Shown one piece after another: positions 44,232-63,265 of a stretch of 64,000 bases of DNA. Position 1 is the stretch's first letter; the number at the start of each line of letters is the position of its first letter. The stretch comes from Christiangramia salexigens. GTDB taxonomy: Bacteria; Bacteroidota; Bacteroidia; Flavobacteriales; Flavobacteriaceae. The stretch is from positions 1,026,501-1,090,500 of the forward strand of contig NZ_CP018153.1 of NCBI RefSeq assembly GCF_001889005.1, given 5' to 3'. The position numbers were made by a program, and so were the translations under genes. The notes beneath the pieces were generated by a model. It did not search any database. It was given only the letters and a program-made list of their open reading frames with translations, and was not told where the DNA came from.

Positions 44232-44266
44232 AATACTTAATTTTAGGCACTACGTAAAGTATAACT

Positions 44267-45153: not shown

Positions 45154-46077
45154 TTATTCTGTAACGGGAATAAAAATTTCAGCTTTCCAATTGATTGAAG
45201 GTGTTCCCATATTCGGGTTGTCATAAAAAACTTCCAGCGGTAAGCCTGTAGATTCAAGCTCTCTGAGTTCGATCTCATGCATCAGGTCGTACCAGGCCAG
45301 GTGAGACATCCTGTAATTCCCATTAAATATAGCCTTTATCGCCTTAAAAGATGGAATTTTTCGAAATTCAAGATAATCTGAATCTATTTTCTCTACGCCT
45401 TCCAGTTTGACAGGGAAACAAAAATCGAAATCAATCTTTTTTGTATCCATATCCCAACGCTCCACTTTTACAAAAGGTACACCGTTTAATTCGAGGTTAT
45501 TAGTGGTAATATAATCTTCCAGAGAAGTAATGGTTCGCACCATTTCCCCTGCTTTTTTATCTACAGGAACATTTTTAGAGCTTCTGCAGATACAATCCAA
45601 TTCAGGAGAAGTTACCAGTGAATCCAGAATTTTAACCGCATAGGTTTCCTGAACCGTGTTTAAGCGTTTCTTAAATCTTATCAGTTTATTTTCCAAAGAA
45701 TCAACAAGTTCACTTGTTTGAAATGGGCTAAGAATAGCAAGCCTGTTCTTAATTTGGTTCTTTCGCGATCTCACTTTTAAAGTAAGATCTGTAACCGAAT
45801 CATTGGCTTTTTCAAATTCCCAGTTAAATTCAAGGACAGCTTCAGTTCCAGCCGATATTTCCTGCTTAAGCCCCTTAAAAGGATTCTCCTCGGTTATACT
45901 GATATTATCTTTAGAATTTGGTCCATCAAATTTCTTCCAGTCTGCAATCTCATCATAAGCCACCCCCGGCCCATATTTCGCAGTCATATGAAATTGATAA
46001 TCGTATTCCTTTATAAATAAGAACCATATTACACCTGCTGATAAAATCAGAAGGCTAACCCATAGAATTTTTTTCAT
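45154..46077 (-). CDS. Membrane-anchored GyrI-like ligand-binding protein
   Basis: A 307-residue protein with one N-terminal hydrophobic helix (residues 4-22), so it is anchored or exported. Residues 30-130 could be a degenerate SRPBCC-like fold (FDGPNSKDNISITEENPFKG). The C-terminal third matches the GyrI/AraC effector-binding fold: VKLEGVEKIDSDYLEFRKIP, then AIFNGNYRMSHLAWYDLMHE, and EVFYDNPNMGTPSINWKAEI. It has no DNA-binding domain, so it is a stand-alone small-molecule binding protein. It is last in the operon behind the haloperoxidase-fold gene with a 6-bp gap, which suggests that it binds a ligand or product of that pathway; this is inference. Confidence 0.72.
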   Translation of the reverse strand: MKKILWVSLLILSAGVIWFLFIKEYDYQFHMTAKYGPGVAYDEIADWKKFDGPNSKDNISITEENPFKGLKQEISAGTEAVLEFNWEFEKANDSVTDLTLKVRSRKNQIKNRLAILSPFQTSELVDSLENKLIRFKKRLNTVQETYAVKILDSLVTSPELDCICRSSKNVPVDKKAGEMVRTITSLEDYITTNNLELNGVPFVKVERWDMDTKKIDFDFCFPVKLEGVEKIDSDYLEFRKIPSFKAIKAIFNGNYRMSHLAWYDLMHEIELRELESTGLPLEVFYDNPNMGTPSINWKAEIFIPVTE

Positions 46078-46083
46078 AGATCC

Positions 46084-47430
46084 TTAGTTGGAAGCGATAT
46101 TGCTTTTAGAAGCTGTCATTTGTAATTTATTCACCACAAAGTTACCAAGATCCTGCCCCTGATCTAGGCCTACTTCTATTGCGGCGCGATAATGGATACC
46201 ACCGTATAAACGGCTGTTTGCCGCCTCTGTTGAAGCATGCTTAAAAGATTTAAAGCTTCTCACCGGTAATCCATATTCCACTTCTGTATCGTCGTCAAAA
46301 CTGAAGTCATCACCAAAAATATCAGTTAATGCGATCGCTGCGGCACCAGATACAACTGAGTGACCACTCGTATATTCCGGGAATGGAGGTGTCTGTAAAA
46401 CAGAGGTCCAGTTCTCATCAATATATTTATTGATCAGTGTTTCCGGTCTAACGAGATTGCTTCGGTACTTTTCATCCCAGCAACTAATAAAAGCATCTGC
46501 AATGGCAACCGAAGTTTTAGCATACGCGTAAACAGATTTATCGAAACCTGCACCAGATTCTCTACAGGCTATTTTCGTGATGCCAATCCAGTGTCCTCCC
46601 GGGGTGATCTTTTTGGTCGCGAACATTAGATGTCCTCTCAAAATAGATACATAAGGATTACAATCCCAGAATTTTGCGATCTCCATCTTTTCGCTGTTCT
46701 CTTCGTTCGCAGCGATCTCTTCACGAATATTATATACCTCCATCAGCTCGTTATGAAATCTGCTTCCAGGCTCCATGGAAAATTCAGGCGGTGGAGCAGG
46801 TTTAAATTGATTGGCTTCATTTATAACAAATGGTCTGATCTTATTCCAGTGTGGCTCGATGCCATCCATATAAGATGGCGGCGTTGGCTGCCACCTGCTT
46901 TCATCCTCGGTATGAATTGAGAATTTAGGCATGGTACGGGTTTCGGCATAATTATCTTTAGCCATCCAGGCTTTTACATGCTCTGCAACCTTAAGCCCGT
47001 ATTCTTCTGAAGCCAGGAAAGTCTCCTCATCCTTTTCCTTCCAGATATTGAAAATACTATCGCGTTTTTGAGTCAACCGATCTTCAGAAAACACAAGGCT
47101 TTTTCCCAATTCGTAAAAAGCCACCAAAGAGGCAACTTCCGGATTGGTTTTATCTGAAGTTGGTTTTGGACCAGGACCTAGATCGGTTAATTGACCAGCC
47201 AGAGTTTTATATTCAGGGTTGAACTGTGCCATAACCTCGTAGGCTGCAATATTGGAATAGGCGTATACACGACTCGCTACGGGAGGTGAAAATATATCAT
47301 GCACCATTACCCTGCTCAAATGATCATTTGCGGCATGATAGTCATCCCCGGTGACTTCAATCTTCTCTACATCCTTTTCACAAGCTATAAAAGAAACCGA
47401 TAATAAAACGAGTAAAAAAATACGTTTCAT
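46084..47430 (-). CDS. Vanadium haloperoxidase / PAP2-fold lipoprotein
   Basis: A 448-residue lipoprotein with signal MKRIFLLVLLSVSFIAC and lipid-anchored Cys17. The C-terminal half holds the three motifs shared by vanadium haloperoxidases and PAP2 phosphatases: K321 and R328 in KYRSNLVRPE, S355-G356-H357 in YTSGHSVVSG, and R407 and H413 in SRLYGGIHYR. All the anion-coordinating residues are thus present. Whether it uses vanadate and halide or hydrolyses phosphate cannot be told by eye. It starts 1 bp after the stop of the third ASPIC/FG-GAP gene, so it is surely co-transcribed. Lipoprotein export next to SusC/D points to the outer membrane. Confidence 0.88.
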   Translation of the reverse strand: MKRIFLLVLLSVSFIACEKDVEKIEVTGDDYHAANDHLSRVMVHDIFSPPVASRVYAYSNIAAYEVMAQFNPEYKTLAGQLTDLGPGPKPTSDKTNPEVASLVAFYELGKSLVFSEDRLTQKRDSIFNIWKEKDEETFLASEEYGLKVAEHVKAWMAKDNYAETRTMPKFSIHTEDESRWQPTPPSYMDGIEPHWNKIRPFVINEANQFKPAPPPEFSMEPGSRFHNELMEVYNIREEIAANEENSEKMEIAKFWDCNPYVSILRGHLMFATKKITPGGHWIGITKIACRESGAGFDKSVYAYAKTSVAIADAFISCWDEKYRSNLVRPETLINKYIDENWTSVLQTPPFPEYTSGHSVVSGAAAIALTDIFGDDFSFDDDTEVEYGLPVRSFKSFKHASTEAANSRLYGGIHYRAAIEVGLDQGQDLGNFVVNKLQMTASKSNIASN

Positions 47431-47431
47431 A

Positions 47432-50400
47432 TTATAATTCTAATTTATACAATTCAACTTTTGCATCATTCAGGCTAACCATTAAATAAGTTGTTCCCTG
47501 AATTTTTATTACTGAAAAATCTTTAACAGATTTTTGTGATAAATTTAATCCAATTTCATTGGAATCAAGAATATTATCGGGCTTAATTAATATGGCTCCG
47601 CCAAATGCATCAAACTTTCCGTGATACGGGGTAACACCAAAATAATTCCCGCCTAAAAGAACTTCTTCTTTACCATCATTATTAAAATCATAATTCAGCA
47701 TTGCCCGGATTGGAGCAACCTGAAGTTCATTTCCAAAAGGCCTGAATTTATATTTTCCGCCAGTATTTTCCAGATATCCCGAAGCTAGGGTATGAACTTT
47801 ATGCACAGAAGCACTCTTAAGTTCTTCTGGGGTGAAGATCTCACTAACCGTTTTCCCTGCAAAGTCCTTATAGGTTGTGAACCTTTTCCTCATCAGCTGA
47901 TTAAGCTGACCGGCAAGATCATCAAATCCATTGATAAAGTAATATTTGCCATCTTTTTCAGAAGCTACAAGAGTTTCGGTTAAGCCATTTTTATCAAAAT
48001 CCTTGAAGTACATCATTAAAGGATGTTCTGCAGATGCTTTCAATTTAGTATTCAGCCCCCAGTTTCCAAGCAACAGGTCTTTATCCCCGTCCTGATCTAC
48101 ATCAAAAGCAATGATATCCTGCCACAAGCCATTAAGTTCTTCAGAAATCCTTGTACTGGTTACATCTTTAAATTCTCCATTTCTATTTTCCAGAAACATT
48201 GGAGACATCCACTCTCCTACTACGATTAGATCAAGATCTTCATCATTATCAAAATCTTCCCAGATCGCGTCATTGATCATTCCAAGACCGGAGAAAAGAT
48301 CTTGTTGCAAGGCTTGAAATTTCCCATTTTCATTTCTAAGCAAATAAGCCTTTGGGGTTTCCCCATATTTATAATTTACAGAATTAGCTCCTATAAAAAT
48401 ATCCTGATCTCCATCCTTATCATAATCGGCAGATCTTATAACCGATGAATTCCCATAGAGCTCAGGGAAATTAGCATCGTTCTTAAATTTTAAATCGGTC
48501 TCACCAAGATATAACCTATCCAGCAGCCATTCATTCTTTCCAACCGACTCTCCGCCACCGGAAATCATAAGAATATCCTGTACTCCATCATTATTAAAAT
48601 CTGCAATGTCCAGATCGGTATCTTCGGCAAGTGAATCTTTTTTGATCTCACTAATATTCTTTGGAGTAAATCTGCCCTGATCTTGAATATAAACTGCAGC
48701 CGGTCTGTATCTGGAAGCTCCAAAGACAACATCCGCCTCGCCATCCATATTCAGATCTCCAACTTTTACAGCTGGTCCAAAATCTGACATGCGGTGTGGA
48801 ATAAGCTTCTGCATGTCGAAATCATTAAATCTATTTTCCTTGTGGGTATAATTCAACCCAAAGTCATTCTCTAGCTTGCTAAACCAGACTTTATTTTTTG
48901 GGTAATATAGAGATCTTAAACCAACCTCACGGTCTTCGGCCTCAGGAGTCGCGGTAAGCGTCGTATTGGGTTTTATCGATCTATGTGTCTGCACTCTTCC
49001 ATCCGGCCAGATTATGCTCAGAGAATCGATCGTGGTAGATTTTTCGAATCCAAAATGCATTACCGGCTCTGACGATGACTGATAAGCCTTAGTGGTATAA
49101 AGCTGCCTGAATTGGTTTCCTTTATCGGTATAAAGTATAGCCTTGCTTCCAATTCCAAATTTGTTTCCGTTATTCTGAGAAATTTTGATCTTCAGATAGT
49201 TTCCGGTAGTTTTTTGATTGATATAAAGACTGGCCGAACTATTCACATTATTGGTCACAATATCCAGATCACCATCATTATCAAGGTCTCCATAAGCGAT
49301 TCCTGTTGAGATCAATGAATCGTTCTGTATCCAGGATTTTGACATATCCTGAAAAGTCCCGTTGGAATTACCTTTAAACACATAGTTTGGAATCTTACCT
49401 GACGGCATCAGTTTTAAGGCTTCATTATCTACCAGAGTTGTTTGATCCAGCTTTTGCTGAATTTGTTCATTGGAAGTATATTTCACATAATCCAGATCAT
49501 TAGGACGCTTTGGAATTCCATTGCTGATAAAAAGATCCTGTTGCCCGTCCAGATCAAGATCTGCAAATAATGCTCCCCAACTCCAGTCGGTTGCTGCCAC
49601 GCCGCTCATTAAAGCAGTTTCAGCAAAATATTCCCCTCCTTTATTCAACTGAAGCATATTCCTGGTATACTGTGGATGGTAGCCAAGCTGATTGATCTTG
49701 AATTCGTGGAGGTTTACATTATCGTCTCCCGCAGAAGATTTGAGAATAGCTTCATCTTCCGGTAACATATCCAGAGTGATAAGATCTACAAATCCATCAT
49801 TATTGATATCGGCCGCATCACTACCCATCGAGAATCTTGATATATGCCCGAATTTAGATTTAAGACTTTCAGTAAAAGTACCGTCTCCATTATTCAGATA
49901 ATAATAATCATCTTCATGAAAATCGTTTCCTATATAAATATCTGTAAAACCGTCATTATTAAAATCGGCTGTGCTAATACCAAGTCCGTAGCTATTTGCT
50001 CCCCCGTATATACCTGCTTCCTCACTTATATCTCTAAACTTACCGTTCTCGTTTAAAAACAGTTTATCACCGCTTTCATACACCCTATCGTTTCTAATTG
50101 TAGCCGGACCAAAAGATTCGTTGGTATGGATGGCGTGGTTTAGCAAGTACATATCCAGATCTCCATCATTCTCAAGATCAAAGAATGCAGCTTGCGAAGA
50201 ATAATTTTCAAGATCTAAACCGTATTCCCTGGCACTCTCTGTAAATGTCAGATCTCCGTTATTGATGAAAAGTTCATTATAGCCTACAAAACCATTTACA
50301 CCAACTACGGCGGAAACGTAGATATCAAGAAATCCATCACCATTTACATCGGCCATGGTTGTTCCTGTATTCCAGGTGCTGTTACCGGCAACACCAGCCT

Positions 50401-50725
50401 GTTCGGTAATATCTTCAAATTTAAGATTCCCCTTGTTGAGATATAATTTATTCTTGACCTGATTTCCGGTAAAATAAATATCAGGCAGCCCGTCATTGTT
50501 GATATCACCAATACTAACGCCTCCTCCATTATAGAAATAGAGGTAATCCAGGATATTCTGGTCCCTGTTCTCGGTTAGAGTATTGGTGAAGTCTATCCCG
50601 GAAGTTTTTATAGAAGGATTAGAAAAAGTTCTCTCTTCCTTTTTGGAACACCCGATAAAACTAACGAGAAATGCGAAAAGAAAAGTTTTACTGATTGCTG
50701 ACCTCAAAAATCTTCGGTTTTTCAT
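47432..50725 (-). CDS. FG-GAP/VCBS and ASPIC/UnbV repeat lipoprotein, third paralogue
   Basis: A 1,097-residue lipoprotein with Cys26 in the FIGC lipobox. Residues 60-500 form an integrin-like propeller with repeated calcium loops such as DINNDGLPDIYF, DVNGDGFLDIYV, DLENDGDLDMYL and DLDNDGDLDIVT. An ASPIC/UnbV (CRTAC1-type) domain covers about 508-590 (GNKFGIGSKAILY, IDSLSIIWPDGRVQ). A second propeller runs from about 640 to the end (DLNMDGEADVVFGASRYRPA). Its start lies 38 bp inside the upstream paralogue, which implies translational coupling. Older annotations call such proteins RNA-binding; nothing here supports that. A ligand-binding surface protein partnering SusC/D is the best inference. 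Confidence 0.85.
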   Translation of the reverse strand: MKNRRFLRSAISKTFLFAFLVSFIGCSKKEERTFSNPSIKTSGIDFTNTLTENRDQNILDYLYFYNGGGVSIGDINNDGLPDIYFTGNQVKNKLYLNKGNLKFEDITEQAGVAGNSTWNTGTTMADVNGDGFLDIYVSAVVGVNGFVGYNELFINNGDLTFTESAREYGLDLENYSSQAAFFDLENDGDLDMYLLNHAIHTNESFGPATIRNDRVYESGDKLFLNENGKFRDISEEAGIYGGANSYGLGISTADFNNDGFTDIYIGNDFHEDDYYYLNNGDGTFTESLKSKFGHISRFSMGSDAADINNDGFVDLITLDMLPEDEAILKSSAGDDNVNLHEFKINQLGYHPQYTRNMLQLNKGGEYFAETALMSGVAATDWSWGALFADLDLDGQQDLFISNGIPKRPNDLDYVKYTSNEQIQQKLDQTTLVDNEALKLMPSGKIPNYVFKGNSNGTFQDMSKSWIQNDSLISTGIAYGDLDNDGDLDIVTNNVNSSASLYINQKTTGNYLKIKISQNNGNKFGIGSKAILYTDKGNQFRQLYTTKAYQSSSEPVMHFGFEKSTTIDSLSIIWPDGRVQTHRSIKPNTTLTATPEAEDREVGLRSLYYPKNKVWFSKLENDFGLNYTHKENRFNDFDMQKLIPHRMSDFGPAVKVGDLNMDGEADVVFGASRYRPAAVYIQDQGRFTPKNISEIKKDSLAEDTDLDIADFNNDGVQDILMISGGGESVGKNEWLLDRLYLGETDLKFKNDANFPELYGNSSVIRSADYDKDGDQDIFIGANSVNYKYGETPKAYLLRNENGKFQALQQDLFSGLGMINDAIWEDFDNDEDLDLIVVGEWMSPMFLENRNGEFKDVTSTRISEELNGLWQDIIAFDVDQDGDKDLLLGNWGLNTKLKASAEHPLMMYFKDFDKNGLTETLVASEKDGKYYFINGFDDLAGQLNQLMRKRFTTYKDFAGKTVSEIFTPEELKSASVHKVHTLASGYLENTGGKYKFRPFGNELQVAPIRAMLNYDFNNDGKEEVLLGGNYFGVTPYHGKFDAFGGAILIKPDNILDSNEIGLNLSQKSVKDFSVIKIQGTTYLMVSLNDAKVELYKLEL

Positions 50726-53700
50726 CGTTAATTGCTGCTATTATAAATGTTTTCCCATCCTTGTCTTTAAAGCGTTTCAGGAATTTCACTTCCTCCTTGA
50801 TCATAAATCCGCTCTTATCATAGTCCTGCCAGTCAAAGTTCATTTTTCCATCACCAAGAAGTACATTTCCAAAACTGGCGTCCAGTCTTGAGAACTGAGG
50901 TTTAAATTCAAAATTATTACCTGCCATCACTAGATCCAGGTTCCCGTCATTGTTAACGTCCATGCAGGAAATTCCACAGATACACGAGAATTGCACCCTG
51001 TTTGGCAATTTTTTGATCTCAAATTGACCACCACCCTGATTAACGGCAATAATAGATTCTGAAATTGCCGCACGCTTTACGATCGCATTATCCACCTTTT
51101 CTTTTGGAAACAATTGTGGTACGGTCTTTTTAGAATATTCTGAAGCTCTAAGGTTCTCCTTTTTCAAGGAGACCAGTTGAGACGTCATTTCTTTCTTCAT
51201 ATGCAAAGGATAATCCTTGCCATCCTTTTGAGTGGTCACGATCTGCTCGATCGTCCCATTATTATCAAAATCGTTCACCCACATCTTCATTGGACTATCC
51301 ATAGAGGTCTTATAAGGACTATTAGAACCCCTATTACCCAAAACAAGGTCAAGGTCCCCGTCATTATCCAGATCGGCGGCTTCTACGGTATTCCACCAAC
51401 CATCATATTCATTAAGATTGGATTTAAGATTAGAAAGTCTTCTTCCTGTATTTTTAAAGATCTTAGGCGCTCCCCAATCTGAAACTGTAATAAGATCTTT
51501 GATATTATCACCATCTATATCTTCCCAGATTGCGTCGGTGATCATTCCAGCATATTTCAGGTCATATGCGATCCTTTCTGTTGAGTTTGCAAATTTTCCT
51601 CCTCCCCTGTTCTCCAGAAATAAGTGTTGTGGATCTATTCCATAATTCAGCGCTACACTTCGGGATCCAACGAAAACATCTACATCACCATCATTATCAA
51701 AATCGAAAGGTGCGATCACTGAAATATTCTGATTAACCGATGGAATAATTTCCGAAGTAAGCTTGAACTTCCCAGAGCCATTGTTTAAATAGAGTCTGGG
51801 TTTGTAGTTAGACTCCTCATTTACTTCATTACCTCCAGAACCTATCATCAAGTCCAGATCACCGTCGCCATCTGCATCGAAGAATGATGCCGCCGTATCC
51901 TCGAAATTCTTATCGGCTTCCAGAGCCGGTTGATTCGTTTTTCGGAGATTGCCATTTCCGGTATTCAAATAAATAGTCCCTGGCTGATTTTTAGCTCCGC
52001 CAACAAAGACATCCTCATTTCCATCACCGTCAATATCACCAACGGCCAGCGATGGTCCTTCCTGTGATAGTTTTTTATAGATCATTCCCTCATAATCAAA
52101 GTCTGTGTAGCTATTTTCAGTGTGCTTTTCGAGGTTTTGATTGGAACGTTCAGTTAGCAATTGCTTCTGTTTTTTAGGCGGCTGTACCTTATAGGTTTCT
52201 TTCGCCTCTTTTTGTTTTAGGACCAGTGTATTATTGGTCTTCAGGTTTTGTAGCAATTGCGTTGAATTATCAGGCCAGATAATACGAAGTGAATCTATTT
52301 TATCTACTGCCCCTAAACCAATATTCATGGTATAATCCATTGAGGATTGAAATCCTCTGGATGGATTCTGCTCCTGCATCACAATGTTCTTCCCATGATA
52401 AAGCCTAACGATGCTCCCAATTCCAAACTGATTCTTCTGATTTCCTTCCAGCTTGAGACGCAGAAAATTTCTATCCTTTAGTTTCTCTGAATTATTGCGA
52501 TAAACAAAAGACTCCATGTTCACGTTATTTACTACCAGATCCAGATCCCCGTCATTATCCAGGTCTCCATAGGCAGATCCGTTAGACAAACTCGGTGTTC
52601 CCAGTCCCCATTTCTTTGAGGAATTATCAAATTTTAGATCTCCGGTATTCTCAAAAGCATAATTAGGCAAAGGGGTGACCGGCATTTTATTGATAATAGA
52701 ATCTATAGCCTGTTTCTTACCGGTAAGGGCCATTTTTTGAATGATCTCATTGGCAAAAAATTCAACAAAATCAATATCTGTAAGATCATGATTAATACCG
52801 TTGGTCACAAATATATCGCGGTTACCATCGTTATCCATATCAAAGATCAAACCTGCCCAACTCCAGTCTGTTCTTTCTACCCCGCTAAAATTCGCGATCT
52901 CAGAGAATGAATTGTTACCGTTGTTAAGCTGAAGGGTGTTGTGAATGTATTGCTGATAGAAATCCTTACTCTGCTTTAGTTTAAAAACATTATAGCCTTC
53001 AAATTCCATTACAGATTTCACTCGTTCTTCGGTTTCAGGTAACATATCTGTAATAAAAATATCTCCCAGCCCGTCATTATTGATATCGGCATAATCTACT
53101 CCCATCGCAGAAAGTGAAAGATGTGAAGTCCAGTTTTCTATATCTTCGGTAAAAGTCCCATCCTGATTGTTGATGTATAGATAATCTCTCTCATAGAAAT
53201 CGTTAGAAACATAGATATCCGGATAAAGGTCATTATTAAAGTCACTAACCATCACTCCAAGACCAAAACCTATCAAGCTTCCGTAAATATTAGCTTCTTC
53301 GCTAACATCGGTAAATTTACCATCATCATTACGAAGCAGCATATCTCCAACTCCTCTGAAGATCTTAGGTACTCCTTCCCAGTCCTGCGCTCTAACTTCT
53401 CTTTGCTCAGCATAACCCAGACTCGTCACGGGAATATTCGAATTATTAAGAATATAGGCATCCAAGTCACCATCCTTATCATAATCAAAGAAAGAGGCAT
53501 GAGTACTAAAACCAGTTTCGGCAAGATTGTATTCCTGTGCGCTCTCGGTAAAAGTGAGATCGCCGTTATTTATATAAAGATCATTATTATGATTATCGCC
53601 TTCCATGTTCCCGGCGTTACTCACATAGATATCCAGTAAACCATCCTGATTAATATCTACCATATTTACTCCCGTAGACCATGGCTTATTCCCTTCTACC

Positions 53701-54053: not shown

Positions 54054-54056
54054 GGA

Positions 54057-57000
54057 TTATAATGAATTATTGCTTTTTAATATTATTGCTGAAGCATTAT
54101 TAAAAGTGATCACAAAATGAGTTTCACCTTTTATAATAACTTTTTGTATGTCTCTGGCTGCCCCCGATAATTCCGGTAAATTCTTAAGAACAGGCTTAAA
54201 GAAACCTTTTTTATCGTTCAAAAGAAGTACTCCGTGATTGGCATCCAATCTACCTAATTGAGTACTAATTTCATAGTTGTTTCCAACAAAATACAGGTCC
54301 AAAAAGCCATCGGCATTGAAGTCATATTTTTCGATCTCCGATATACTGGAAGCCTGAACTTCAAATGGCAATCTATGTTTGATAAAGCTATTATCTCCGC
54401 GATTTTCAAAATAATAACTGCCTAATTCATAAACTTCTTTCACCTGGGAATCCGTTATCTTTTCCCTTGAAAAAAGATCTTCAAATTTAGCCGCGGCAAA
54501 TTGCTTATAGGTGGGAAACTTTTTCTTTAAAAATGGCAGCTGCTGATCCAGTTCATCCTTGGAGGAAAATGGAGTTTCTTCTCCCTTATAATAATAAGTT
54601 ACTATTGGATCCACCGAAGAATTACCATCAAAATCGTTCAGATATAATTTTAAAGGATTGTCCCGGCTGGCTGTCAATCTGGAATTTAAGCCCCAGTTGC
54701 CTGCCACAATATCTATATCGCCGTCTTTATCAAAATCTGCTGCCTCTAAGCTATTCCACCAACCACTAGTGTCCTCGAGATCTGTATCTAATAGAGTTAA
54801 TTTTTTTCCATCGTTCAGATATATACTTACGGGCATCCAGTGCCCCACCACAATGGCATCCTTATAGGAATCCTCATTAAGATCTACCCAAATAATATCC
54901 TGCACATTGCCGGCATTGGTAAAAACCTCAGAATATTCAAGACTAACATCTTCGAAATTCCCTTTCCCGTTATTTAAGAAAAGGTACTGTTTCGGAGTTT
55001 TCCCATATGCCCCGGGCACTACATTTGCGGTAAAACTAACATCTAAGAACCCATCATTGTTCAAGTCTACAACACTTACCCTGGAAGCATTGATCTCAAC
55101 ACCTTTGAATTCTGATTCCATCAGTTTTAACTCCCCGTTATTATTAAGATATAATCTTGGTTGCAATGGTTTACCTCTTCTAAATTCATTCCCTCCACTT
55201 ACTACGAGGATGTCCAGGTCACCATCTGAATCTGCATCCAGAAATACCTGATCGGTATCCTCTGAAATAGATGACTTCTCAAATTCATCTATTTTCTTAT
55301 GGATAAAGCTTCCTTCAGCAGATTGAAGCCAGATTTGGGTTGGCTGAGTTTTTCCTCCCCCTAATAACAGATCTTCAAGTCCATCTCCATTAAAATCGCC
55401 GGCAGCCACACGGGGACTTTGATTACTATAAGCAAAAGGTATAAGTGGATCCCTGTTAAATTCAAGACTGGATTGCTCTGTATGATAATAGTTTATCAGC
55501 GAGTTCTTCTTTACTAAAAGTGGTTTTTGCTTTGGATCTTTGAGATTTGATCTCAGTGAATCAGCATCATTTATATTAAAAGTGATCGTAGAATTAGTCT
55601 TTATTTTATATCTGGTTTCGGAAAGGTCTTTATTCCAGATCACCTGCACCGAATCAATATTCTTTGTAATCCCTGTTCCAAAATGTAAGCCCGGTGCTAC
55701 TGAAGACAGATAACCACGACTTAGATAATGTTCCTGAACCTGAAGCTTTCCGTCACTAAAAACTTTGACTTTTGCTCCTATGCCAAGAGAATTTCCGGAT
55801 GCTCCCTTGAGGTTAATATTTAAATATCTGCTTTGGTTTAACTCTGTGCTCTTATTCCTGTAAACCCCGGCCTTCTCATCCATATTATTGATCACGAGGT
55901 CAAGATCACCGTCATTGTCGAGATCGGCGTAAACAAGCCCGTGGCTGAAGCCAGGTCTAAAATCTATCCACAAATCATTCTTCTTACTGAATGTATTATC
56001 TCCCTTGTTTTGAAAGACAAAGTTAGGAACCTTCTTTTCTGGCAGTTCCCTAATCAATTCATTATAGTTATCAGTTTTACCGGTACTGAGTTCTTTCTGG
56101 ATCTTTTCGTTAGAGATATATTTAATGAAATCCATATCGTTGGTGGCTCCTTTGATTCCATTAGAAATAATAAGATCTTTATGAGTATCATTATCAAGAT
56201 CTGCGAACAAAGCGCCCCAGGACCACTCAGATGCGGCAACACCACTTAAAAAAGCAGTTTCCGAGAAGTTAAGCTCTCCCTTATTAATATGAAGGGTGTT
56301 CTGCATGTACTGCGGAGAAAACCCATTTTTAAGATATTGCGAATAAGTTTGATAGGGATATTCTAGACCAGAAGTCTTATAGGTCTCAAGATCCTCCGGA
56401 AGCATATCCAGTGAAAAGATATCGGCCAGCCCGTCATTATTAACATCGGTGATCTCATTGCCCATTGAAAAATGAGAGGTATGGCCCAACTTTTCGGGAT
56501 GTTCAGAAATGATCTCCTTAAACGTATCATCCCGCTGATTTATATATAGGTAATCATTTTCAAAAAAATCATTACCAACATAGATATCCGGGTAATGATC
56601 ATCATTAAGATCTCCCACGGCTATACCTAACCCATAGCCAATAATTCCCTGAAAAATTCCGGATTCGCCGGATACATCTCTGTACTTTCCATTTTCGTTC
56701 TTAAATAAGCGATCCCCCGATTTTAGATCAAAGCCCTTTCTTTTATCCCCTCTTCCGTAATTACGATTTGGATATACCGAATGGTTCAGCAGGAACATAT
56801 CGAGATCGCCATCCAGATCATAATCCAGAAAAACGGATTGGGTTGAAAATCCTGAAAAATCAAGGCCGTATTCTTCTGCACTCTCTTTGAAGACAGGCTC
56901 TCCTTTAGAGTTATTACCGGTGTTTATATAAAGTAAGTTATGACCTTTTAATTCCTGAAAACCGCTAACTTTTGAAATATACAGATCAAGAAGTCCATCG

Positions 57001-57368
57001 CCATTGATATCTACATTACTTACCCCTGTGGTCCAGCCTGCAGCATTATCTATACCACAGTTTTGTGTACATTCTTCAAATTTGAAATTCCCTTTATTCA
57101 GGTAAAGTTTATCGGCAGACTCGTTAGAGGTGAAATACAAATCGATCAAGCCATCCTGATTATAATCACCAGCAGCAACTCCCGCACCATTATAATAGTA
57201 CAGATAATTAAAAATGTTTAATTCTGAAGCAGCTTCTATCCGATTTGAAAAGTGGATATTGGAATCTTCCGGTGACACTTTTTCAAACAGAAAACTATCT
57301 TTTTTGCAAGACAGGAACGCTACAGCTACGACACTACATACTAGTACACCAAGTCTTTTTCTGATCAT
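54057..57368 (-). CDS. FG-GAP/VCBS and ASPIC/UnbV repeat lipoprotein, first paralogue
   Basis: A 1,103-residue lipoprotein with Cys21 in the FLSC lipobox. It has the same order as its paralogues: a first propeller (AAGDYNQDGLIDLYFTSN, VDINGDGLLDLYIS, DYDLDGDLDMFLLN), ASPIC/UnbV near 545-620 (NSLGIGAKVKVFSDG, IDSVQVIWNKDLSE), and a second propeller (VAAGDFNGDGLEDLLLGGGK). It is the first gene behind susD. A 113-bp gap holding a hairpin separates them, and no TAnnTTTG promoter box is visible in it, so expression probably depends on read-through from susC-susD. Ligand and enzymatic activity are unknown. Confidence 0.85.
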   Translation of the reverse strand: MIRKRLGVLVCSVVAVAFLSCKKDSFLFEKVSPEDSNIHFSNRIEAASELNIFNYLYYYNGAGVAAGDYNQDGLIDLYFTSNESADKLYLNKGNFKFEECTQNCGIDNAAGWTTGVSNVDINGDGLLDLYISKVSGFQELKGHNLLYINTGNNSKGEPVFKESAEEYGLDFSGFSTQSVFLDYDLDGDLDMFLLNHSVYPNRNYGRGDKRKGFDLKSGDRLFKNENGKYRDVSGESGIFQGIIGYGLGIAVGDLNDDHYPDIYVGNDFFENDYLYINQRDDTFKEIISEHPEKLGHTSHFSMGNEITDVNNDGLADIFSLDMLPEDLETYKTSGLEYPYQTYSQYLKNGFSPQYMQNTLHINKGELNFSETAFLSGVAASEWSWGALFADLDNDTHKDLIISNGIKGATNDMDFIKYISNEKIQKELSTGKTDNYNELIRELPEKKVPNFVFQNKGDNTFSKKNDLWIDFRPGFSHGLVYADLDNDGDLDLVINNMDEKAGVYRNKSTELNQSRYLNINLKGASGNSLGIGAKVKVFSDGKLQVQEHYLSRGYLSSVAPGLHFGTGITKNIDSVQVIWNKDLSETRYKIKTNSTITFNINDADSLRSNLKDPKQKPLLVKKNSLINYYHTEQSSLEFNRDPLIPFAYSNQSPRVAAGDFNGDGLEDLLLGGGKTQPTQIWLQSAEGSFIHKKIDEFEKSSISEDTDQVFLDADSDGDLDILVVSGGNEFRRGKPLQPRLYLNNNGELKLMESEFKGVEINASRVSVVDLNNDGFLDVSFTANVVPGAYGKTPKQYLFLNNGKGNFEDVSLEYSEVFTNAGNVQDIIWVDLNEDSYKDAIVVGHWMPVSIYLNDGKKLTLLDTDLEDTSGWWNSLEAADFDKDGDIDIVAGNWGLNSRLTASRDNPLKLYLNDFDGNSSVDPIVTYYYKGEETPFSSKDELDQQLPFLKKKFPTYKQFAAAKFEDLFSREKITDSQVKEVYELGSYYFENRGDNSFIKHRLPFEVQASSISEIEKYDFNADGFLDLYFVGNNYEISTQLGRLDANHGVLLLNDKKGFFKPVLKNLPELSGAARDIQKVIIKGETHFVITFNNASAIILKSNNSL

Positions 57369-57432
57369 AGATCTTATTCAGTAGGGTTGCTGAATATTTT
57401 ATAAATATTTGTTAAAAGTAAGAATATTATAC

Positions 57433-57465
57433 AAAAAAAAAGAAGGCATAAATGCCTTCTTTTTT
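57433..57465 (-). terminator. Terminator or attenuator between susD and the lipoprotein triplet
   Basis: The arms AAAAAAGAAGGCAT (57436-57449) and ATGCCTTCTTTTTT (57452-57465) are perfectly complementary, with the T run on the minus strand. Placed 16 bases after the susD stop, it should cut most transcripts and leave a reduced level for the genes downstream. Confidence 0.85.
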
Positions 57466-57481
57466 AAAATTTTGATTTGAA

Positions 57482-59101
57482 TTAGTAACCCGGATTCTGT
57501 GTAAGATTAGGGTTAAGATTCAGCTGAGTTGCAGGGATTGGGAAACGTGTAAGATTTTCATTTCCTACTGCTCCATCATCCTTGAACATCCAGTCTCTTG
57601 TGAACTGTCCAAATCTAATCATATCATTTCTTCTCCAGAACTCGCCGTAAAGCTCTCTTCCTCTTTCATCAAGAAGATCTTGTTCTGTTACCGAAGCTAA
57701 TGCAGTTGCTTTTCTAAGTTCTCTAAGGGTATTTACCATAGCAGTAACATCTTCTCCCATACGTAGTTTAGCCTCTGCTTTCATAAGATAAGCATCAGAA
57801 TATCTGAAGAATATTTCGTGCTCAGTAAATCCACCAAATCTTGGGTTATATTTAATAACTCTAATTCCGGTTCTTTCACTGTTGTTAATAAGGCTAGTGT
57901 TTCCGTTTGCATCCTTATATTCTCTTGTGAACACTAAAGGATTACCCGCTCTATCTTGTAATTTACTACCATCGTAAGCATACTGCTGGTTTATAAGGAA
58001 TCCATTACCAATGTTAGAACCGTCAGCAAAACCATCACCATCTGAATCGTTAGTTCCAGCTGGAGCCTGACCTATAGGAGTTCCGGCTTTAGGAACAAAT
58101 CCTCTTCTTTCTTCTTGTCCAGAACCTTGATAGTTTTCATTAGCATCACCTTCAAAAAGATCGTAGAATTCAGCTAAAGTTGCGAATCCATTCCAACCAC
58201 CACCGGAGATTTCAGTCCCTTGGTTGTAGTGAAGTGTATTCCAGATTCTGTTACCAACACCTGTTGGGATCCACCAGATTGTTTCTTTATCAAGATCCTT
58301 CTTGAAGATATCAAAATAACCTTCTACAAGGTCAAATCCTTCTCCGTTGATCTCATCAACTAAAGAAACTACTTTCTGCATATCTGCAGAATCTGCTGAG
58401 TCGTTACCTAAGTAAACGTGCTTGTTAAGGTAAACTTTAGCCAATAGATATTGAGCTGCTGCTTTACTAGCAAACCTTGTGTTACCGTTAGGTCCAACTG
58501 AAGGAAGGTTTGAAATTGCACGCTCAAGGTCGGCAACAATAAAGTCTACTGCTTCCTGTCCTGTTAAAACCTGAGGTAATTCAATAGAAGGTACACTTGT
58601 ATCTCTAAATGGAATTTGACCAAAGTTATCCAGGATTACGAACATACTCAATGCTCTTAAGAAAGATGCATCACCTATATTCTGAGCAGAAGGACTACTT
58701 CTTTCATCCAGCACCTGTGAAGCTGCTAGCTGAGTCTCATTCCACTGGTTCCAAACGTTAGTAATAAATTGGTGCTCTGCAGTCCAGGTGTGCTGGTGCA
58801 ATTGTCTCCAGATACCATTATCACCCCAGTCCGTTCCACGAGTTGGAATTAACAACTCATCTGTGGTAACTTCACTTAAAGCGTATAAGTTAGCCTGATC
58901 ACCAATTCTTCCGTTAAGTCCAACGTAAATACCTTCTACAAAAGAATCTGGGTTCTCTACCCCGGTAAAGCCGGCAGAGATTATAGAATCGGTTTCTTCA
59001 ATCTCAAGATCTGTACAGGACGAGGTCGAAACCAGGAGTGATCCTATCGCACAGATCGTTAGAAAACGATTGCTTTTTAAATTAAATTCGAGTTTTTTCA
59101 T
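57482..59101 (-). CDS. SusD/RagB family outer-membrane lipoprotein
   Basis: A 539-residue substrate-binding lipoprotein that acts as the lid of the SusC transporter on the cell surface. The signal peptide ends in STSSC with lipidated Cys29. The helical SusD fold follows: an N-terminal part around GFTGVENPDSFVEGIYVGLN, a TPR-like core (ASKAAAQYLLAKVYLNKHVY near residue 205), and the C-terminal SusD motif YSDAYLMKAEAKLRMGED near 425. The protein ends with the usual RFPIPATQLNLNPNLTQNPG. It is 21 bp after susC. The sequence does not reveal the ligand; no glycoside hydrolase or sulfatase lies nearby, so a carbohydrate ligand is not guaranteed. Confidence 0.95.
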   Translation of the reverse strand: MKKLEFNLKSNRFLTICAIGSLLVSTSSCTDLEIEETDSIISAGFTGVENPDSFVEGIYVGLNGRIGDQANLYALSEVTTDELLIPTRGTDWGDNGIWRQLHQHTWTAEHQFITNVWNQWNETQLAASQVLDERSSPSAQNIGDASFLRALSMFVILDNFGQIPFRDTSVPSIELPQVLTGQEAVDFIVADLERAISNLPSVGPNGNTRFASKAAAQYLLAKVYLNKHVYLGNDSADSADMQKVVSLVDEINGEGFDLVEGYFDIFKKDLDKETIWWIPTGVGNRIWNTLHYNQGTEISGGGWNGFATLAEFYDLFEGDANENYQGSGQEERRGFVPKAGTPIGQAPAGTNDSDGDGFADGSNIGNGFLINQQYAYDGSKLQDRAGNPLVFTREYKDANGNTSLINNSERTGIRVIKYNPRFGGFTEHEIFFRYSDAYLMKAEAKLRMGEDVTAMVNTLRELRKATALASVTEQDLLDERGRELYGEFWRRNDMIRFGQFTRDWMFKDDGAVGNENLTRFPIPATQLNLNPNLTQNPGY

Positions 59102-59122
59102 AATTATCTTAATTTTTCAATA

Positions 59123-62100
59123 TCAAAATGCTGCGTTCAATCCAAAAGTGATAGTTCTAGGTCTTGGGAAAGCACCGTAGTCTATACCAGCTGTTGGCAC
59201 TCCAGATCCAAGATCACCTGTATTAGAAGTTACTTCAGGATCTAATCCAGTATAATCAGTTATAAGGAATAGGTTTTGACCTATTAAAGAGAATCTTAAA
59301 GAGCTTAAGAAACTATCCTCCGAAAGTGGCACATCATAACCAAGAGAAGCGTTCTGCATTCTAATAAAGTCTCCTTTTTCAAGATATCTTGTAGATACCT
59401 CTGCAGAAGTACCTGCTGCCTCACCTAGTGATAATACATTTGTTGTTACGTTACGGGAAGTTGAGATCGCACCTGTAGTAAAGAATGCGTTTCTGGTAGC
59501 ATTATATACAGAGAATCCAAACTGTCCGGTTAAGAATGTACCAACTGTCCAGTTGTCATAAGTAAGGTTTAAGTTTAAACCTGCGTTAACATCTGGTAAT
59601 GCATCTTCACCAACGAATTTCTTATCTGATGCAGGATCTCCTATTCCATTTCCGTTTACGTCTTCGTAAACCGGGAATCCGTTTTCATCCAATCCTTCAA
59701 ACACAGCCATATAGTAAGAGAACAATGGTTGTCCAGCTTCTAAACGTTGCGCGAAAGCGTTAGATAGACCAGCTCCACGAATGGCTCCAGTATCTGCAGT
59801 TCTGTCTACACCCTGTACTTCGTTATCGTTGTAAGAGATGTTGAATGCAGCAGAGAAAAGAAGTCTGTCTGTAGAAATAAAGTCATATTCAAGACCAAGT
59901 TCAACACCCTGGTTAAGAACGATTCCATTTTCAAGGTTTACGAAAAGGAATGGATCACTTGCTGGTGCAGGTGCCGGAGATCTGAATAAAAGATTACTTG
60001 TTTCTTTTCTATAAAAATCAAGACTACCGGTAAATCTGTCCATATTAAGACCAAAATCTAAACCGATGTTATAATCTAAAGTTTCCTCCCATTTAAGGTT
60101 AGGGTTATCTACCGCTACGATTTCTGTACCAGGTCTGTTAATTGTTCCTGCATCTGAAATTCCAGGCTGACCAAATCTTTGTCTTGCAACGAAGTTTGCA
60201 TACCCAAGTCCTTCCTGGTTACCGGTTTTACCAACACCAAGTCTTACTTTTAAAGTAGAGAAAGAATCTGCGAATACGTCTTCTTCACTTAATTTCCATG
60301 CAAAAGCTCCTGAAGGGAAATATCCATACTGATTTTCAGGACCGAATCTAGAAGACCCATCTGCTCTGAAGGTTGCAGTAAGAAGGAATTTATCCATTAA
60401 AGAATAGTTTGCTCTTGCAAAGAAAGACTGTAATTCGTCTGTGTTATCATAAGTATCACCCCAAAGTGCACTGATACCGGTATTGAAGTTTCCACCTAAA
60501 GTTCCGGTGTTATCAATATTCGGGAATAAACGGTTAACAAAAGAACCATTTGGATCATAACCAAAGTTCTGGAAGCTTCCGCTAATAGAATTTCTTGCAC
60601 TGTTAAAAGTATCTTTTAAAAGGTTCCCCATATCATCAAGTTCTGTTGGAGTAAATCCAAAGCCTTGCGAGTTAAAACCATAACGAGTGAAATCCTGATA
60701 AGAGTAACCCGCGATGATATCTAATGAAGAATCTCCAAAATCTTTATCATAAGTAAGAGTGGCTTCTAATAGATTACTTTCAAGGTTGAACTGATTGTAA
60801 GAACCTTGTCCGTTATCTGCTACTCTTTGAATACCTCTCACTAAAGGAGAGAATAAAGTAAGGTTTTCAGATTCAGACTTATCGTAACCAACAGTTACTT
60901 TTGCCGCTAATTCAGGTATGATATCATACTCAGCTGAAGCATTTAAAAGTACTCTGTTAGTAATAGTTGAACTTCTATAGTATTCTAATAAACTTGCAGG
61001 GTTCAAAGCACCTCCACCCGGATCAAAATTAGGATCGTTTGGCCAGGTTGGATTCGCTAAATAAGAAGCACCAATAAGGTCACCGTTAAATCCAGCACTA
61101 GCACTTAATGGTGGAGCCTGATCGTTTATTTTAGATACAGTACCCTGAAAAATCACATTAAGTTTATCATTAAAGAATCTTTTTCTTGCGTTTAATCTTG
61201 CAGTAACTTTTTCTTGCTCAGATTTCTCTACAACACCTTCCTGATCGCTATAACCCCAGGTAGCTCTAATAGAACCTGATTCAAATCCTTTAGAGAAAGA
61301 CAGGTTATGATTTTGAGAAACCGTGCTTCTGGTAATAACATCCTGCCAGTTAGTATCTGCACCAAAATCAAGTGAAGATGCATCCGGGTTACCAAACTGC
61401 TCTAATGCATTTAGGTATTGATTTCTGTTTAGAAGGTCATATTCGTCTGCAGGAGTTGAATAAGCAACGTTTGCAGAATACTCGAATTTACCTTCGCCAA
61501 AACCTCTACCACTCTTAGTAGTAATGATCACAACTCCGTTGGCACCTCTGGAACCGTAGATAGCAGTAGCTGAAGCATCCTTAAGAATACTCATGCTTTC
61601 AATATCATTAGGGTTAAGGAAACTTAACGGATTACGAGCAGAACCGCCTCCAAAAGCGATATCTCCAGGTGCAGCTACGGTATTCTCACCAGATAACGGC
61701 ACACCATCTACTACAAATAATGGACTGTTGTTAGAACGAATAGAGTTGGATCCACGTATTCTAATGCTTACTCCAGCTCCAGGTTCACCAGAGGATTGTG
61801 TGATTTGCACACCCGCGGTCTTACCTTGGATCAATTCTTCAGGAGAAGCAATTACCCCTTTATTAAATTGCTCGGAAGTAACCGAAGTTACCGCACCGGT
61901 CGCATCTTTAACAGTAGTTTGACCATAACCAATAACCACCACTTGCTCCAGTTCAGAAGCATCTGTTTCCATATTTACATTAACAGTGCTTCGGTTATTA
62001 ACTCCTATTTGCTGAGTTTTATACCCAACGAAACTGAAGACAAGTACGCCTTCCGGATCTACGTTATTAAGGGTGTAGTTCCCGTCAAAATCTGTGGTAG

Positions 62101-62254
62101 TTCCCGTACTTGTGCCTTGCACACTTACGTTAACCCCTGGTAATGGTCCGCTTTCGTCGGTCACTGTACCCGTTACTGTAGTCTGAGCATTTACCATACT
62201 CAAACAAAAGAAAACGGAAACCAACAAGAAGCTTCTGAGTAATTTGTTTTTCAT
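59123..62254 (-). CDS. SusC/RagA family TonB-dependent outer-membrane transporter
   Basis: A 1,043-residue TonB-dependent channel that imports a ligand captured with SusD. After the signal peptide (1-24, cut after VNA) comes a carboxypeptidase-regulatory-like domain (25-105, TVTGTVTDESGPLPGVNVSV). Next is a TonB-box-like EQVVVIGYG and the plug with GVQITQSSGEPGAGVSIRIR and RGSNSIR near residues 150-240. The 22-strand barrel ends in aromatic FGLNAAF. No N-terminal STN or sigma/anti-sigma domain is present, so regulation is not by trans-envelope signalling through this protein. A LacI-type dyad overlapping its promoter suggests control by a sugar-responsive repressor. Confidence 0.96.
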   Translation of the reverse strand: MKNKLLRSFLLVSVFFCLSMVNAQTTVTGTVTDESGPLPGVNVSVQGTSTGTTTDFDGNYTLNNVDPEGVLVFSFVGYKTQQIGVNNRSTVNVNMETDASELEQVVVIGYGQTTVKDATGAVTSVTSEQFNKGVIASPEELIQGKTAGVQITQSSGEPGAGVSIRIRGSNSIRSNNSPLFVVDGVPLSGENTVAAPGDIAFGGGSARNPLSFLNPNDIESMSILKDASATAIYGSRGANGVVIITTKSGRGFGEGKFEYSANVAYSTPADEYDLLNRNQYLNALEQFGNPDASSLDFGADTNWQDVITRSTVSQNHNLSFSKGFESGSIRATWGYSDQEGVVEKSEQEKVTARLNARKRFFNDKLNVIFQGTVSKINDQAPPLSASAGFNGDLIGASYLANPTWPNDPNFDPGGGALNPASLLEYYRSSTITNRVLLNASAEYDIIPELAAKVTVGYDKSESENLTLFSPLVRGIQRVADNGQGSYNQFNLESNLLEATLTYDKDFGDSSLDIIAGYSYQDFTRYGFNSQGFGFTPTELDDMGNLLKDTFNSARNSISGSFQNFGYDPNGSFVNRLFPNIDNTGTLGGNFNTGISALWGDTYDNTDELQSFFARANYSLMDKFLLTATFRADGSSRFGPENQYGYFPSGAFAWKLSEEDVFADSFSTLKVRLGVGKTGNQEGLGYANFVARQRFGQPGISDAGTINRPGTEIVAVDNPNLKWEETLDYNIGLDFGLNMDRFTGSLDFYRKETSNLLFRSPAPAPASDPFLFVNLENGIVLNQGVELGLEYDFISTDRLLFSAAFNISYNDNEVQGVDRTADTGAIRGAGLSNAFAQRLEAGQPLFSYYMAVFEGLDENGFPVYEDVNGNGIGDPASDKKFVGEDALPDVNAGLNLNLTYDNWTVGTFLTGQFGFSVYNATRNAFFTTGAISTSRNVTTNVLSLGEAAGTSAEVSTRYLEKGDFIRMQNASLGYDVPLSEDSFLSSLRFSLIGQNLFLITDYTGLDPEVTSNTGDLGSGVPTAGIDYGAFPRPRTITFGLNAAF

Positions 62255-62332: not shown

Positions 62333-62340
62333 CAAAGATA
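62333..62340 (-). promoter_or_regulatory. -7 box of the susC promoter
   Basis: TATCTTTG on the minus strand, 78 bases before the susC ATG. The expected -33 position, about 19 nt further up, falls inside the palindrome at 62354-62367. The predicted leader is roughly 72 bases. Confidence 0.6.
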
Positions 62341-63254: not shown

Positions 63255-63265
63255 AATTCTGAATT

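Follow-up and report, generated by a model that had tools for sequence, protein, structure and literature searches.

What does an outer-membrane importer do in the company of three large repeat lipoproteins and a haloperoxidase-fold enzyme? The window, a stretch of 64,000 nucleotides from Christiangramia salexigens, contains seven open frames on the minus strand between 45154 and 62254, in the order SusC-SusD-ASP1-ASP2-ASP3-VHPO-GyrI. The coordinates and strand that an earlier note on this DNA gave for the seven genes agree with the open reading frames, and Pfam and NCBIfam profiles recover the families it named. The features of the run are as follows:

59123..62254, minus strand, SusC/RagA-type TonB-dependent outer-membrane protein, 1043 aa (TIGR04056, 717 bits; TIGR04057; PF13715)
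57482..59101, minus strand, SusD/RagB-family lipoprotein, 539 aa (PF07980, PF14322; PDB SusD 3ck7, E 1.6e-27)
57436..57465, minus strand, terminator/attenuator-like hairpin between SusD and ASP1 (13 pairs, then a T run)
54057..57368, minus strand, ASP1, lipoprotein with FG-GAP repeats and a UnbV_ASPIC domain, 1103 aa (Pfam; own orthologous group)
50688..54053, minus strand, ASP2, lipoprotein with FG-GAP repeats and UnbV_ASPIC, 1121 aa (Pfam; CRTAC1 9etn, E 1e-11; orthologous group)
47432..50725, minus strand, ASP3, lipoprotein with FG-GAP repeats and UnbV_ASPIC, 1097 aa (prediction: an ASPIC domain flanked by two beta-propellers)
46084..47430, minus strand, VHPO, vanadium-dependent haloperoxidase lipoprotein, 448 aa (relative of the Zobellia iodoperoxidase 4CIT/4USZ; signature residues)
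45154..46077, minus strand, GyrI, membrane-anchored SRPBCC-like and GyrI-like small-molecule-binding protein (putative binder), 307 aa (GyrI-like Pfam match)

The SusC-SusD pair, recognized by Pfam, NCBIfam and a PDB match, identifies a SusCD nutrient-uptake locus; SusD scores 145 bits against the NCBIfam starch-specific SusD model and does not reach its cutoff of 725. Genes of the run overlap or are 1 to 21 bp apart, except for a gap of 113 bp between SusD and ASP1. As the earlier note had claimed, the run lacks a degradative enzyme: none of its seven proteins matches a CAZyme, sulfatase or peptidase family in Pfam or NCBIfam. Glycoside hydrolases occur only near some related loci, and the run is therefore classed as a SusCD locus and not as a canonical polysaccharide utilization locus (PUL). 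A lipobox cysteine is present in the N termini of SusD, ASP1, ASP2, ASP3 and VHPO, by a crude rule that also flagged 5 of 68 GyrI relatives. After this cysteine, the other lipoproteins have a weaker acidic export signal than SusD, in a count that took ASPIC frames of at least 1050 aa and only frames away from the ends of a locus. Directly upstream of the run, the window also holds a pair of GMC oxidoreductase genes, which adjoins the locus in Christiangramia only (3 of 18 loci fetched).

The three tandem paralogues of about 1,100 residues are as the earlier note described them, each with FG-GAP_3 and UnbV_ASPIC matches. UnbV_ASPIC scores of 64 to 71 bits (Pfam cutoff, 23.4), together with the FG-GAP repeats, place them in this family, and they are the only UnbV_ASPIC genes found in the 2.98-Mb genome. 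They share 39 to 40% identity with each other over their length, and each contains 10 or 11 DxDxDG-type loops. A CRTAC1-like fold is seen in the predicted structure of ASP3. Unlike the CRTAC1/ASPIC-UnbV protein in PDB 9ETN, ASP3 adds a second, C-terminal propeller (residues 610 to 1097), and the proteins of the window are bacterial lipoproteins in a tandem triplet. In a tree from 16 loci chosen for full triplets, each slot is separated from the others by a branch with an SH-aLRT support of 100 (17 rows per slot), and the three slots are old orthologous groups.

VHPO carries in full what we take to be the vanadium haloperoxidase signature (K-x6-RP, SGH and SR-x5-H), as K321-x6-R328P329, T354-S355-G356-H357 and S406R407-x5-H413; the K/R/SGH/R/H residues read as intact in the earlier note are K321, R328, S355G356H357, R407 and H413. 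It is homologous over its full length (residues 2 to 443) to PDB 4CIT, with an E value of 1.8e-194. The structures 4CIT and 4USZ reportedly belong to the Zobellia vanadium-dependent iodoperoxidase of Fournier et al. 2014. A homologue in Zobellia uliginosa, identical to 4CIT at 443 of 450 residues (98%), lies within an equivalent five-gene run, ASP1-ASP2-ASP3-VHPO-GyrI. The window protein is set apart from the solved enzyme by its identity of about 62 to 63% to this Z. uliginosa relative, and no description of an operon or box was found for that enzyme in the literature searched.

Haloperoxidases and acid phosphatases have a common fold and pocket. VHPO might then be a phosphatase acting on captured sugar phosphates or phosphorylated glucans within a plain uptake locus, and phosphorylated sugars would be compatible with the sugar regulon described below. 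We consider this quite unlikely, given that VHPO is related over its whole length to a vanadium haloperoxidase of solved structure, which PMC5064120 cites as an iodoperoxidase, and that the other PAP2 genes are short: of four PAP2 matches in the 2.98-Mb genome, the three besides VHPO lie in open frames of 185 to 285 aa. Because its full-length relative is cited as an iodoperoxidase, iodide oxidation is the likelier activity for VHPO, as judged from sequence kinship.

The GyrI protein has no lipobox cysteine and a predicted N-terminal helix (residues 2 to 22), which, with the GyrI-like match, agrees with the membrane-anchored binder of the earlier note. Its top structural matches are the rhodamine-binding CTR107 and the closthioamide-binding CtaZ. 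In contrast to the GyrI-like binders CTR107, CtaZ and BmrR, the one in the window is preceded by a membrane helix and an SRPBCC-like domain, with no DNA-binding domain. The earlier note had proposed an outer-surface assembly of the lipoproteins with SusC/D that captures a ligand for VHPO to halogenate or dephosphorylate. In a fuller form of the halogenation proposal, the captured ligand would probably be aromatic and be halogenated at the surface prior to import, and the SRPBCC-GyrI protein would bind the product. The affinity of the matched GyrI-like folds for aromatic or hydrophobic ligands speaks for this proposal; the regulatory and neighborhood evidence indicates sugars instead, and GyrI lies away from VHPO in 12 of the 80 nearest loci (best 80 of 580), so that we regard it as very unlikely.

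Gene order was compared in these 80 nearest loci, the best 80 of 580 confirmed, a sample biased to close relatives in which some contigs are cut, and in a family draw (one genome per genus) and a class-wide draw, each covering those matches that had a locus (29 besides the window's own, with 1.5-kb flanks). Unmatched neighbors were skipped below 130 aa in the nearest loci and below 110 aa in the two draws. An ASPIC gene lies immediately upstream of VHPO in 71 of the best 80 loci, across 23 named genera, and GyrI lies immediately downstream in 68; one of the 12 loci where it does not adjoin VHPO is at a contig end, and in the family draw GyrI is not adjoining in 18 of 29. ASPIC genes adjoin VHPO in 22 of 29 loci of the family draw (20 upstream, 2 downstream). 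In the class-wide draw, where one tandem VHPO pair was counted as two loci and two loci are close together, an ASPIC gene is adjacent upstream in 13 of 29 loci and downstream in 3 (one on the other strand). On the VHPO tree, parsimony assigns seven changes to ASPIC adjacency, five of them forced by well-supported branches, and seven to a xylose cassette. In 13 of 18 fetched loci ASP1 is preceded by SusCD, in two of these across an insert; SusCD was not recognized within the fetched stretch of 3 of the 18, including that of Z. uliginosa, and among relatives different SusCD pairs are swapped into the same slot. The joint occurrence of SusC/D, ASPIC genes and VHPO, which the earlier note proposed as a search, was encountered in many relatives whose upstream side is visible, and the unusual arrangement that it reported is a recurrent one.

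Such adjacency might carry no function, VHPO being carried along as a passenger in a SusCD locus rich in ASPIC genes. ASPIC genes often occur without VHPO (59 against 29 of 80 genomes), and VHPO has no adjoining ASPIC gene in 9 of the best 80 loci. The passenger reading is nevertheless unlikely, as the upstream ASPIC gene is kept across those genera while the surrounding cassettes come and go, and the adjacency extends to the class-wide draw.

The region upstream of SusC holds two further elements:

62354..62367, no strand, LacI-type palindrome CGAAAACGTTTTCG, perfect, 100 bp upstream of the SusC start, putative operator (sequence match)
62333..62340, minus strand, TATCTTTG, resembling the Bacteroidota -7 element (sequence likeness), the consensus of which we take to be TAnnTTTG

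Exact copies of the box occur in this genome at the SusC of the locus and at one other place, flanked by a maltodextrin SusC and by a LacI gene that is followed by genes for an MFS protein, a HAD protein, GH65 and two GH13 proteins. The names maltodextrin SusC, GAPDH, pckA, beta-helix lipoprotein and AsnC-like were given by eye and are presumptive. A search of 1.80 Mb found 13 sites, all intergenic, and 9 of the 16 SusC-type genes compared have the box upstream, or 8 when the count is limited to the 14 at the head of the run (two of the 16 are not). The 104 permuted palindromes averaged 0.42 sites, never more than 3, and none preceded more than one of these SusC genes. The 7 genes of the 16 that lack the box include those of two Christiangramia relatives whose SusCD pair differs. 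By count alone, sites with at most one mismatch are not enriched, either for the 14-mer in this genome (6 sites, as many as the reversed control gives) or for the 16-mer in 80 genomes (125 against 111). Among the matches listed for 18 of 28 other VHPO genomes, the box is at SusC distance from VHPO in four, ambiguously near it in one (G172), elsewhere only in six and absent in seven; it is far from universal among related loci. In other genera, it is found at LacI and SusC promoters and before phosphofructokinase.

Genes related to those of the maltodextrin cluster (LacI, GH65, beta-PGM, MFS or GH13) flank 14 of the best 80 of 580 loci, with GH65 in 5. The linked sugar genes vary between loci, and thus no single substrate is indicated. 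The shared control site suggests that the locus may be switched on together with sugar feeding. The earlier view that this is no ordinary PUL holds for the run without a degradative enzyme and is modified in that the box and the related loci suggest a tie of the locus to small-sugar use. Like Bacteroidota SusCD loci and utilisomes (for example PMC7618045), the locus has SusC and SusD followed by lipoproteins, with a LacI-type box common to a maltodextrin locus; unlike them, its run has no degradative enzyme, and an ASPIC/FG-GAP triplet and a haloperoxidase replace surface glycan-binding proteins and hydrolases. The gene families are already known; for the combination and the box, the literature searched yielded no description.

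From the observed gene content, synteny, old ASPIC triplet, 4CIT kinship with its signature residues, and shared box with its positions, we infer an auxiliary SusCD-type uptake locus, coregulated with alpha-glucoside/glucose use and carrying an envelope iodoperoxidase. In marine Flavobacteriaceae, this would be a conserved nutrient-uptake-type locus, in which SusC/SusD would form the outer-membrane importer and the three double-propeller ASPIC/FG-GAP lipoproteins, through putative protein contacts, a calcium-dependent capture platform next to it. In the same envelope space, the vanadium iodoperoxidase lipoprotein would convert iodide to hypoiodite using peroxide, and the membrane-anchored SRPBCC-GyrI protein may hold a small hydrophobic product or toxicant. 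A LacI-family repressor would read the palindrome upstream of SusC, turning the locus on with alpha-glucoside/glucose metabolism in C. salexigens. The likeliest benefit would be peroxide disposal and a hypoiodite barrier against competitors during feeding on small algal sugars. We hold this full explanation tentatively, at a little short of an even chance. Besides the synteny, the kinship and the box, the DxDxDG-type loops and the glucose, oxygen and Ca2+ requirement of iodine uptake in Arenibacter C-21 (PMC5064120) speak for it. Against it stand the hairpin separating SusD from ASP1 (from a scan that overall is at shuffle level, with 11 found against 12.0), the lack of enrichment of box sites by count and the SusC-type genes without a box, the frequency of ASPIC genes without VHPO, the incomplete GyrI adjacency and the presence of SusCD upstream in only 13 of 18 loci. 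In Zobellia, vIPO3, a different paralogue, is reported to be up on the brown alga Ascophyllum relative to alginate and is grouped with algal-defense responses (PMC9296495), a pattern that speaks for halogen or oxidative stress and not for sugar.

The locus might alternatively serve iodine acquisition, with VHPO making hypoiodite or I2 at the surface, the propellers holding an iodine-bearing ligand that enters via SusC, and sugar giving peroxide and energy. Iodine uptake by Arenibacter C-21 requires glucose, oxygen and Ca2+; glucose oxidase and a haloperoxidase have been proposed for it, and 4USZ has at least five PAP2 homologues in the strain (PMC5064120). Zobellia galactanivorans is said to accumulate iodine (PMC9296495). 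Three Arenibacter loci (L017, L018 and L060) contain ASP2-ASP3-VHPO-GyrI with SusD nearby, and in the window the LacI box before SusC and the GMC pair would fit as well. However, that pair is a Christiangramia-only neighbor, SusCD pairs are swapped at one slot between relatives, and sugar genes, not halide genes, are among the recognized neighbors; we regard iodine acquisition as unlikely. In the literature searched, so far as the accessible parts of its sources go, no operon is given for the solved marine iodoperoxidase, and what is given on function amounts to the iodine-accumulation proposal and the brown-alga induction of one paralogue. A bolder form, for which we see a similarly slim chance, is a sugar-gated machine in which the LacI-controlled SusCD-ASPIC complex and the iodoperoxidase would be one surface device, coupling alpha-glucoside feeding to peroxide-driven iodide oxidation and iodine-ligand uptake, and would underlie the iodine accumulation of marine Flavobacteriaceae that depends on glucose and calcium.

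A relative of the structurally solved iodoperoxidase thus belongs to a set of genes conserved in at least 23 named genera, and the preferred reading, an uptake locus with an envelope iodoperoxidase, predicts that, in the Christiangramia lineage, VHPO would be regulated together with alpha-glucoside/glucose metabolism. The poorly understood ASPIC/FG-GAP lipoproteins of Bacteroidota gain a testable setting, and the locus offers a testable idea of what such haloperoxidases may be for. SusCD, the three ASPIC proteins and the iodoperoxidase become candidate genes for iodine accumulation that requires glucose and calcium, and iodine acquisition, if true, would explain this accumulation in marine Flavobacteriaceae.

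All seven genes that the earlier note had described, namely SusC, SusD, three ASPIC/FG-GAP lipoproteins (ASP1 to ASP3), a vanadium haloperoxidase lipoprotein (VHPO) and a membrane-anchored GyrI-like protein (GyrI), were found in the window by open frames and family searches. The host genome is a single contig of 2.98 Mb, and a whole-genome search retrieved three UnbV_ASPIC genes, all at this locus, along with eight SusD_RagB and three LacI-family matches. Judged by the haloperoxidase, the closest named relatives are Christiangramia/Gramella and Gillisia. The locus is flanked by genes for an APP1-type phosphatidate phosphatase and a YegS-type lipid kinase (43230 to 45139), whose order is unchanged in the loci of Christiangramia and Gillisia. 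A gene pair that lies upstream of SusC and shares its strand encodes a GMC oxidoreductase and gluconate-2-dehydrogenase subunit 3 (62610 to 64000 and beyond; L002:1111-3470); this pair adjoins the locus in Christiangramia only, among 18 loci fetched.

VHPO has a single strong relative in the PDB, the vanadium haloperoxidase 4CIT/4USZ from Zobellia (E value of 1.8e-194), and its haloperoxidase signature residues are all intact. The Zobellia enzyme is reportedly strictly iodide specific, and it is likely that VHPO has the predicted activity of oxidizing iodide. The structures 4CIT/4USZ are referred to as Zobellia galactanivorans vanadium iodoperoxidase (PMC5064120). The loci compared did not include Z. 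galactanivorans itself; the protein of Zobellia uliginosa (L051) has 443 of 450 residues in common with 4CIT, counted on the alignment, and its genes run ASP1-ASP2-ASP3-VHPO-GyrI. SusC and SusD were not recognized in the next 8.5 kb upstream of this run, where an SSS symporter and other genes are found. In Zobellia russellii, SusD lies past inserts, at the end of the fetched stretch.

The conservation sample comprised the nearest 80 of 580 confirmed loci, from 23 named genera plus 21 loci without a genus. In these best 80 of 580, the gene directly upstream of VHPO encodes an ASPIC protein in 71, an SSS symporter in 8 and another protein in 1, and directly downstream stand GyrI (68), an SdiA-regulated-like lipoprotein (10), another gene (1) or the contig end (1). 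At least one ASPIC gene is present in the flanks, as fetched, of 75 of the 80, and the synteny part of our best explanation is near certain. SusC and SusD come next upstream of ASP1 in 13 of 18 loci fetched further upstream, in two of them across an insert; in two others (L183 and L193) SusD or a distant SusCD pair lies further off, and neither gene was recognized in the fetched upstream stretch of L179, L184 and L192. Within the flank sequence available for the remaining 62 loci, SusC and/or SusD is upstream in 15. The pair is exchanged between relatives: SusC scores 752 to 761 bits in L177/L178 versus 1226 in L176, and SusD 283 to 290 versus 748. In L031 (3-3137) and L039, an SSS symporter, a molybdopterin sulfite-oxidase-like protein and a small heme-binding-type protein precede the ASPIC-VHPO run. 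A full flavobacterial-type locus also occurs on a contig filed under Candidatus Rokubacteria (L084); it falls among Flavobacteriaceae on the VHPO tree, and the filing is probably a binning error.

In a tree built from the window and 16 chosen loci, ASP1, ASP2 and ASP3 fall into three separate groups, each with 17 rows and an SH-aLRT of 100, and their order is identical in 16 of 16 chosen loci, the mark of an old triplication with members kept apart. A draw of 80 genomes from the family, with a single genome for each genus, has UnbV_ASPIC in 59 and VHPO in 29 (E value of 1e-20); at the 29 VHPO loci examined besides our own, ASPIC stands directly upstream of VHPO in 20 and downstream in 2, with GyrI downstream in 11. 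In a class-level draw of 149 genomes, 25 carry VHPO, and ASPIC is upstream at 13 and downstream at 3 (one on the other strand) of 29 loci examined besides our own. The VHPO-ASPIC link is thus class-wide yet not obligatory, and ASPIC proteins also have roles in the absence of VHPO. Mapped onto a tree of 81 VHPO proteins, adjacency to ASPIC requires 7 changes, of which starred branches force 5; GyrI requires 10, the xylose cassette 7 and SSS 14.

The 355-bp gap before SusC contains one marked element, with a −7-like element just downstream of it:

62354 to 62367, perfect LacI-type palindrome CGAAAACGTTTTCG (the box), 100 bp from the SusC start codon

Across the 1.80 Mb made up by the window and 98 loci, the box has 13 sites with no more than one mismatch, 7 exact and all 13 intergenic. 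Nine precede SusC-type genes, in one case by 374 bp; two precede a sucrose/maltose-type MFS gene and one a LacI gene, and the last falls in an SSS-VHPO gap. It stands within 400 bp upstream of 9 of 16 complete SusC-type genes and 8 of the 14 that head a run, compared with a mean of 0.42 sites (maximum of 3), and at most one SusC-type gene with a site, for 104 permuted palindromes; the motif had been chosen from the window beforehand, and the related loci are nonindependent. The exact 14-mer has two copies in the host genome, the second lying between the SusC and LacI genes of a maltodextrin locus (L200:1221-17643, at about 344 to 361 kb). This locus encodes SusC, SusD, SusE and an alpha-amylase, with a divergent LacI-MFS-HAD-GH65-GH13-GH13 run; by eye, we take its SusC to be a maltodextrin SusC and its HAD protein to be beta-phosphoglucomutase. 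One-mismatch copies precede phosphofructokinase and enolase, and others stand at what is presumably, by eye, a pckA start and ahead of what is presumably a beta-helix lipoprotein gene.

Thirty box loci from the family draw were inspected. The box is at LacI/SusC promoters in L213 (our own), L214, L218, L225, L227, L228, L229 and L232, at a SusC resembling that of the window in L230, and at phosphofructokinase in L216 and L233. By eye, we take six more to be pckA starts (L204, L207, L220 and L222-L224). In five genomes (L206, L209, L211, L215 and L217), it lies 112 to 125 bp upstream of what we likewise take to be a 159- to 160-residue AsnC/Lrp-like regulator, perhaps part of a wider carbon regulon; the rest are unassigned or coding places. 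Whole-genome counts show no enrichment of the one-mismatch box relative to its reversed control over the 80 genomes (125 versus 111), or of the 14-mer in our own genome (6 versus 6). Among the matches listed, which span 18 of the 28 other VHPO genomes, the box lies 13.9 to 17.7 kb upstream of VHPO, the expected SusC start, in G174, G180, G223 and G225 (14.9 kb in our own). G172 has one just past the VHPO 3′ end and another 20 kb upstream, boxes occur solely at other positions in G160, G167, G182, G183, G185 and G197, and seven genomes have none. The case for the box is therefore positional and extends to one part of the family. The predicted membership of the window locus in a sugar regulon is probable.

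Sugar genes also stand near related loci. In the best 80 of 580, a xylulokinase-xylose isomerase-SSS cassette recurs (xylose isomerase in 11), and relatives of maltodextrin-cluster genes are near 14 (GH65 in 5), with additional upstream sequence included for 18 of the 80. A few loci scanned yielded trehalase-family proteins, a sucrose-type symporter, GH97, a GH100-like protein, GH32, a gluconate symporter with a kinase-6PGD fusion and a glycerol-kinase-type/FAD-oxidoreductase fusion. What these genes have in common is a link to small, neutral sugars and to polyols, with alpha-glucosides frequent among them; no single substrate is indicated. The window itself carries a GH15/trehalase-like gene (32492 to 34288, minus strand) and a trehalose-6-phosphate synthase/phosphatase fusion (34330 to 36600, plus strand), about 8.5 to 13 kb from the locus; their coincidence with trehalases by related loci may or may not be chance.

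The component families of the locus are already known, and a description of the operon and box was not found in the literature searched, which covered few subscription papers. A lipobox-like cysteine in nearly all frames counted (VHPO, 80/80; ASP3, 65/65; ASP2, 62/62; ASP1, 30/31; SusD, 10/10) would place all five proteins at a membrane of the envelope. The SusC/D family has an established function in import, and an iodoperoxidase requires peroxide and iodide, both of which occur around algae. During sugar feeding, the predicted iodoperoxidase would dispose of peroxide and release hypoiodite, a reading favored because of the regulatory tie to glucose metabolism; this benefit is possible but rather doubtful. 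Another Zobellia paralogue, vIPO3, is reported to be induced on a brown alga (PMC9296495), a finding that speaks rather for algal defense, halogen-based or oxidative; it is a different gene from VHPO here. Peroxide disposal during sugar feeding fits the physiology of Arenibacter C-21, whose iodine uptake requires glucose, oxygen and Ca2+ (PMC5064120), so the bolder reading, that the locus may serve iodine uptake, is worth testing. Taken whole, the statement that the locus would be used for peroxide disposal and hypoiodite release while the organism feeds on sugar stands at slightly under an even chance.
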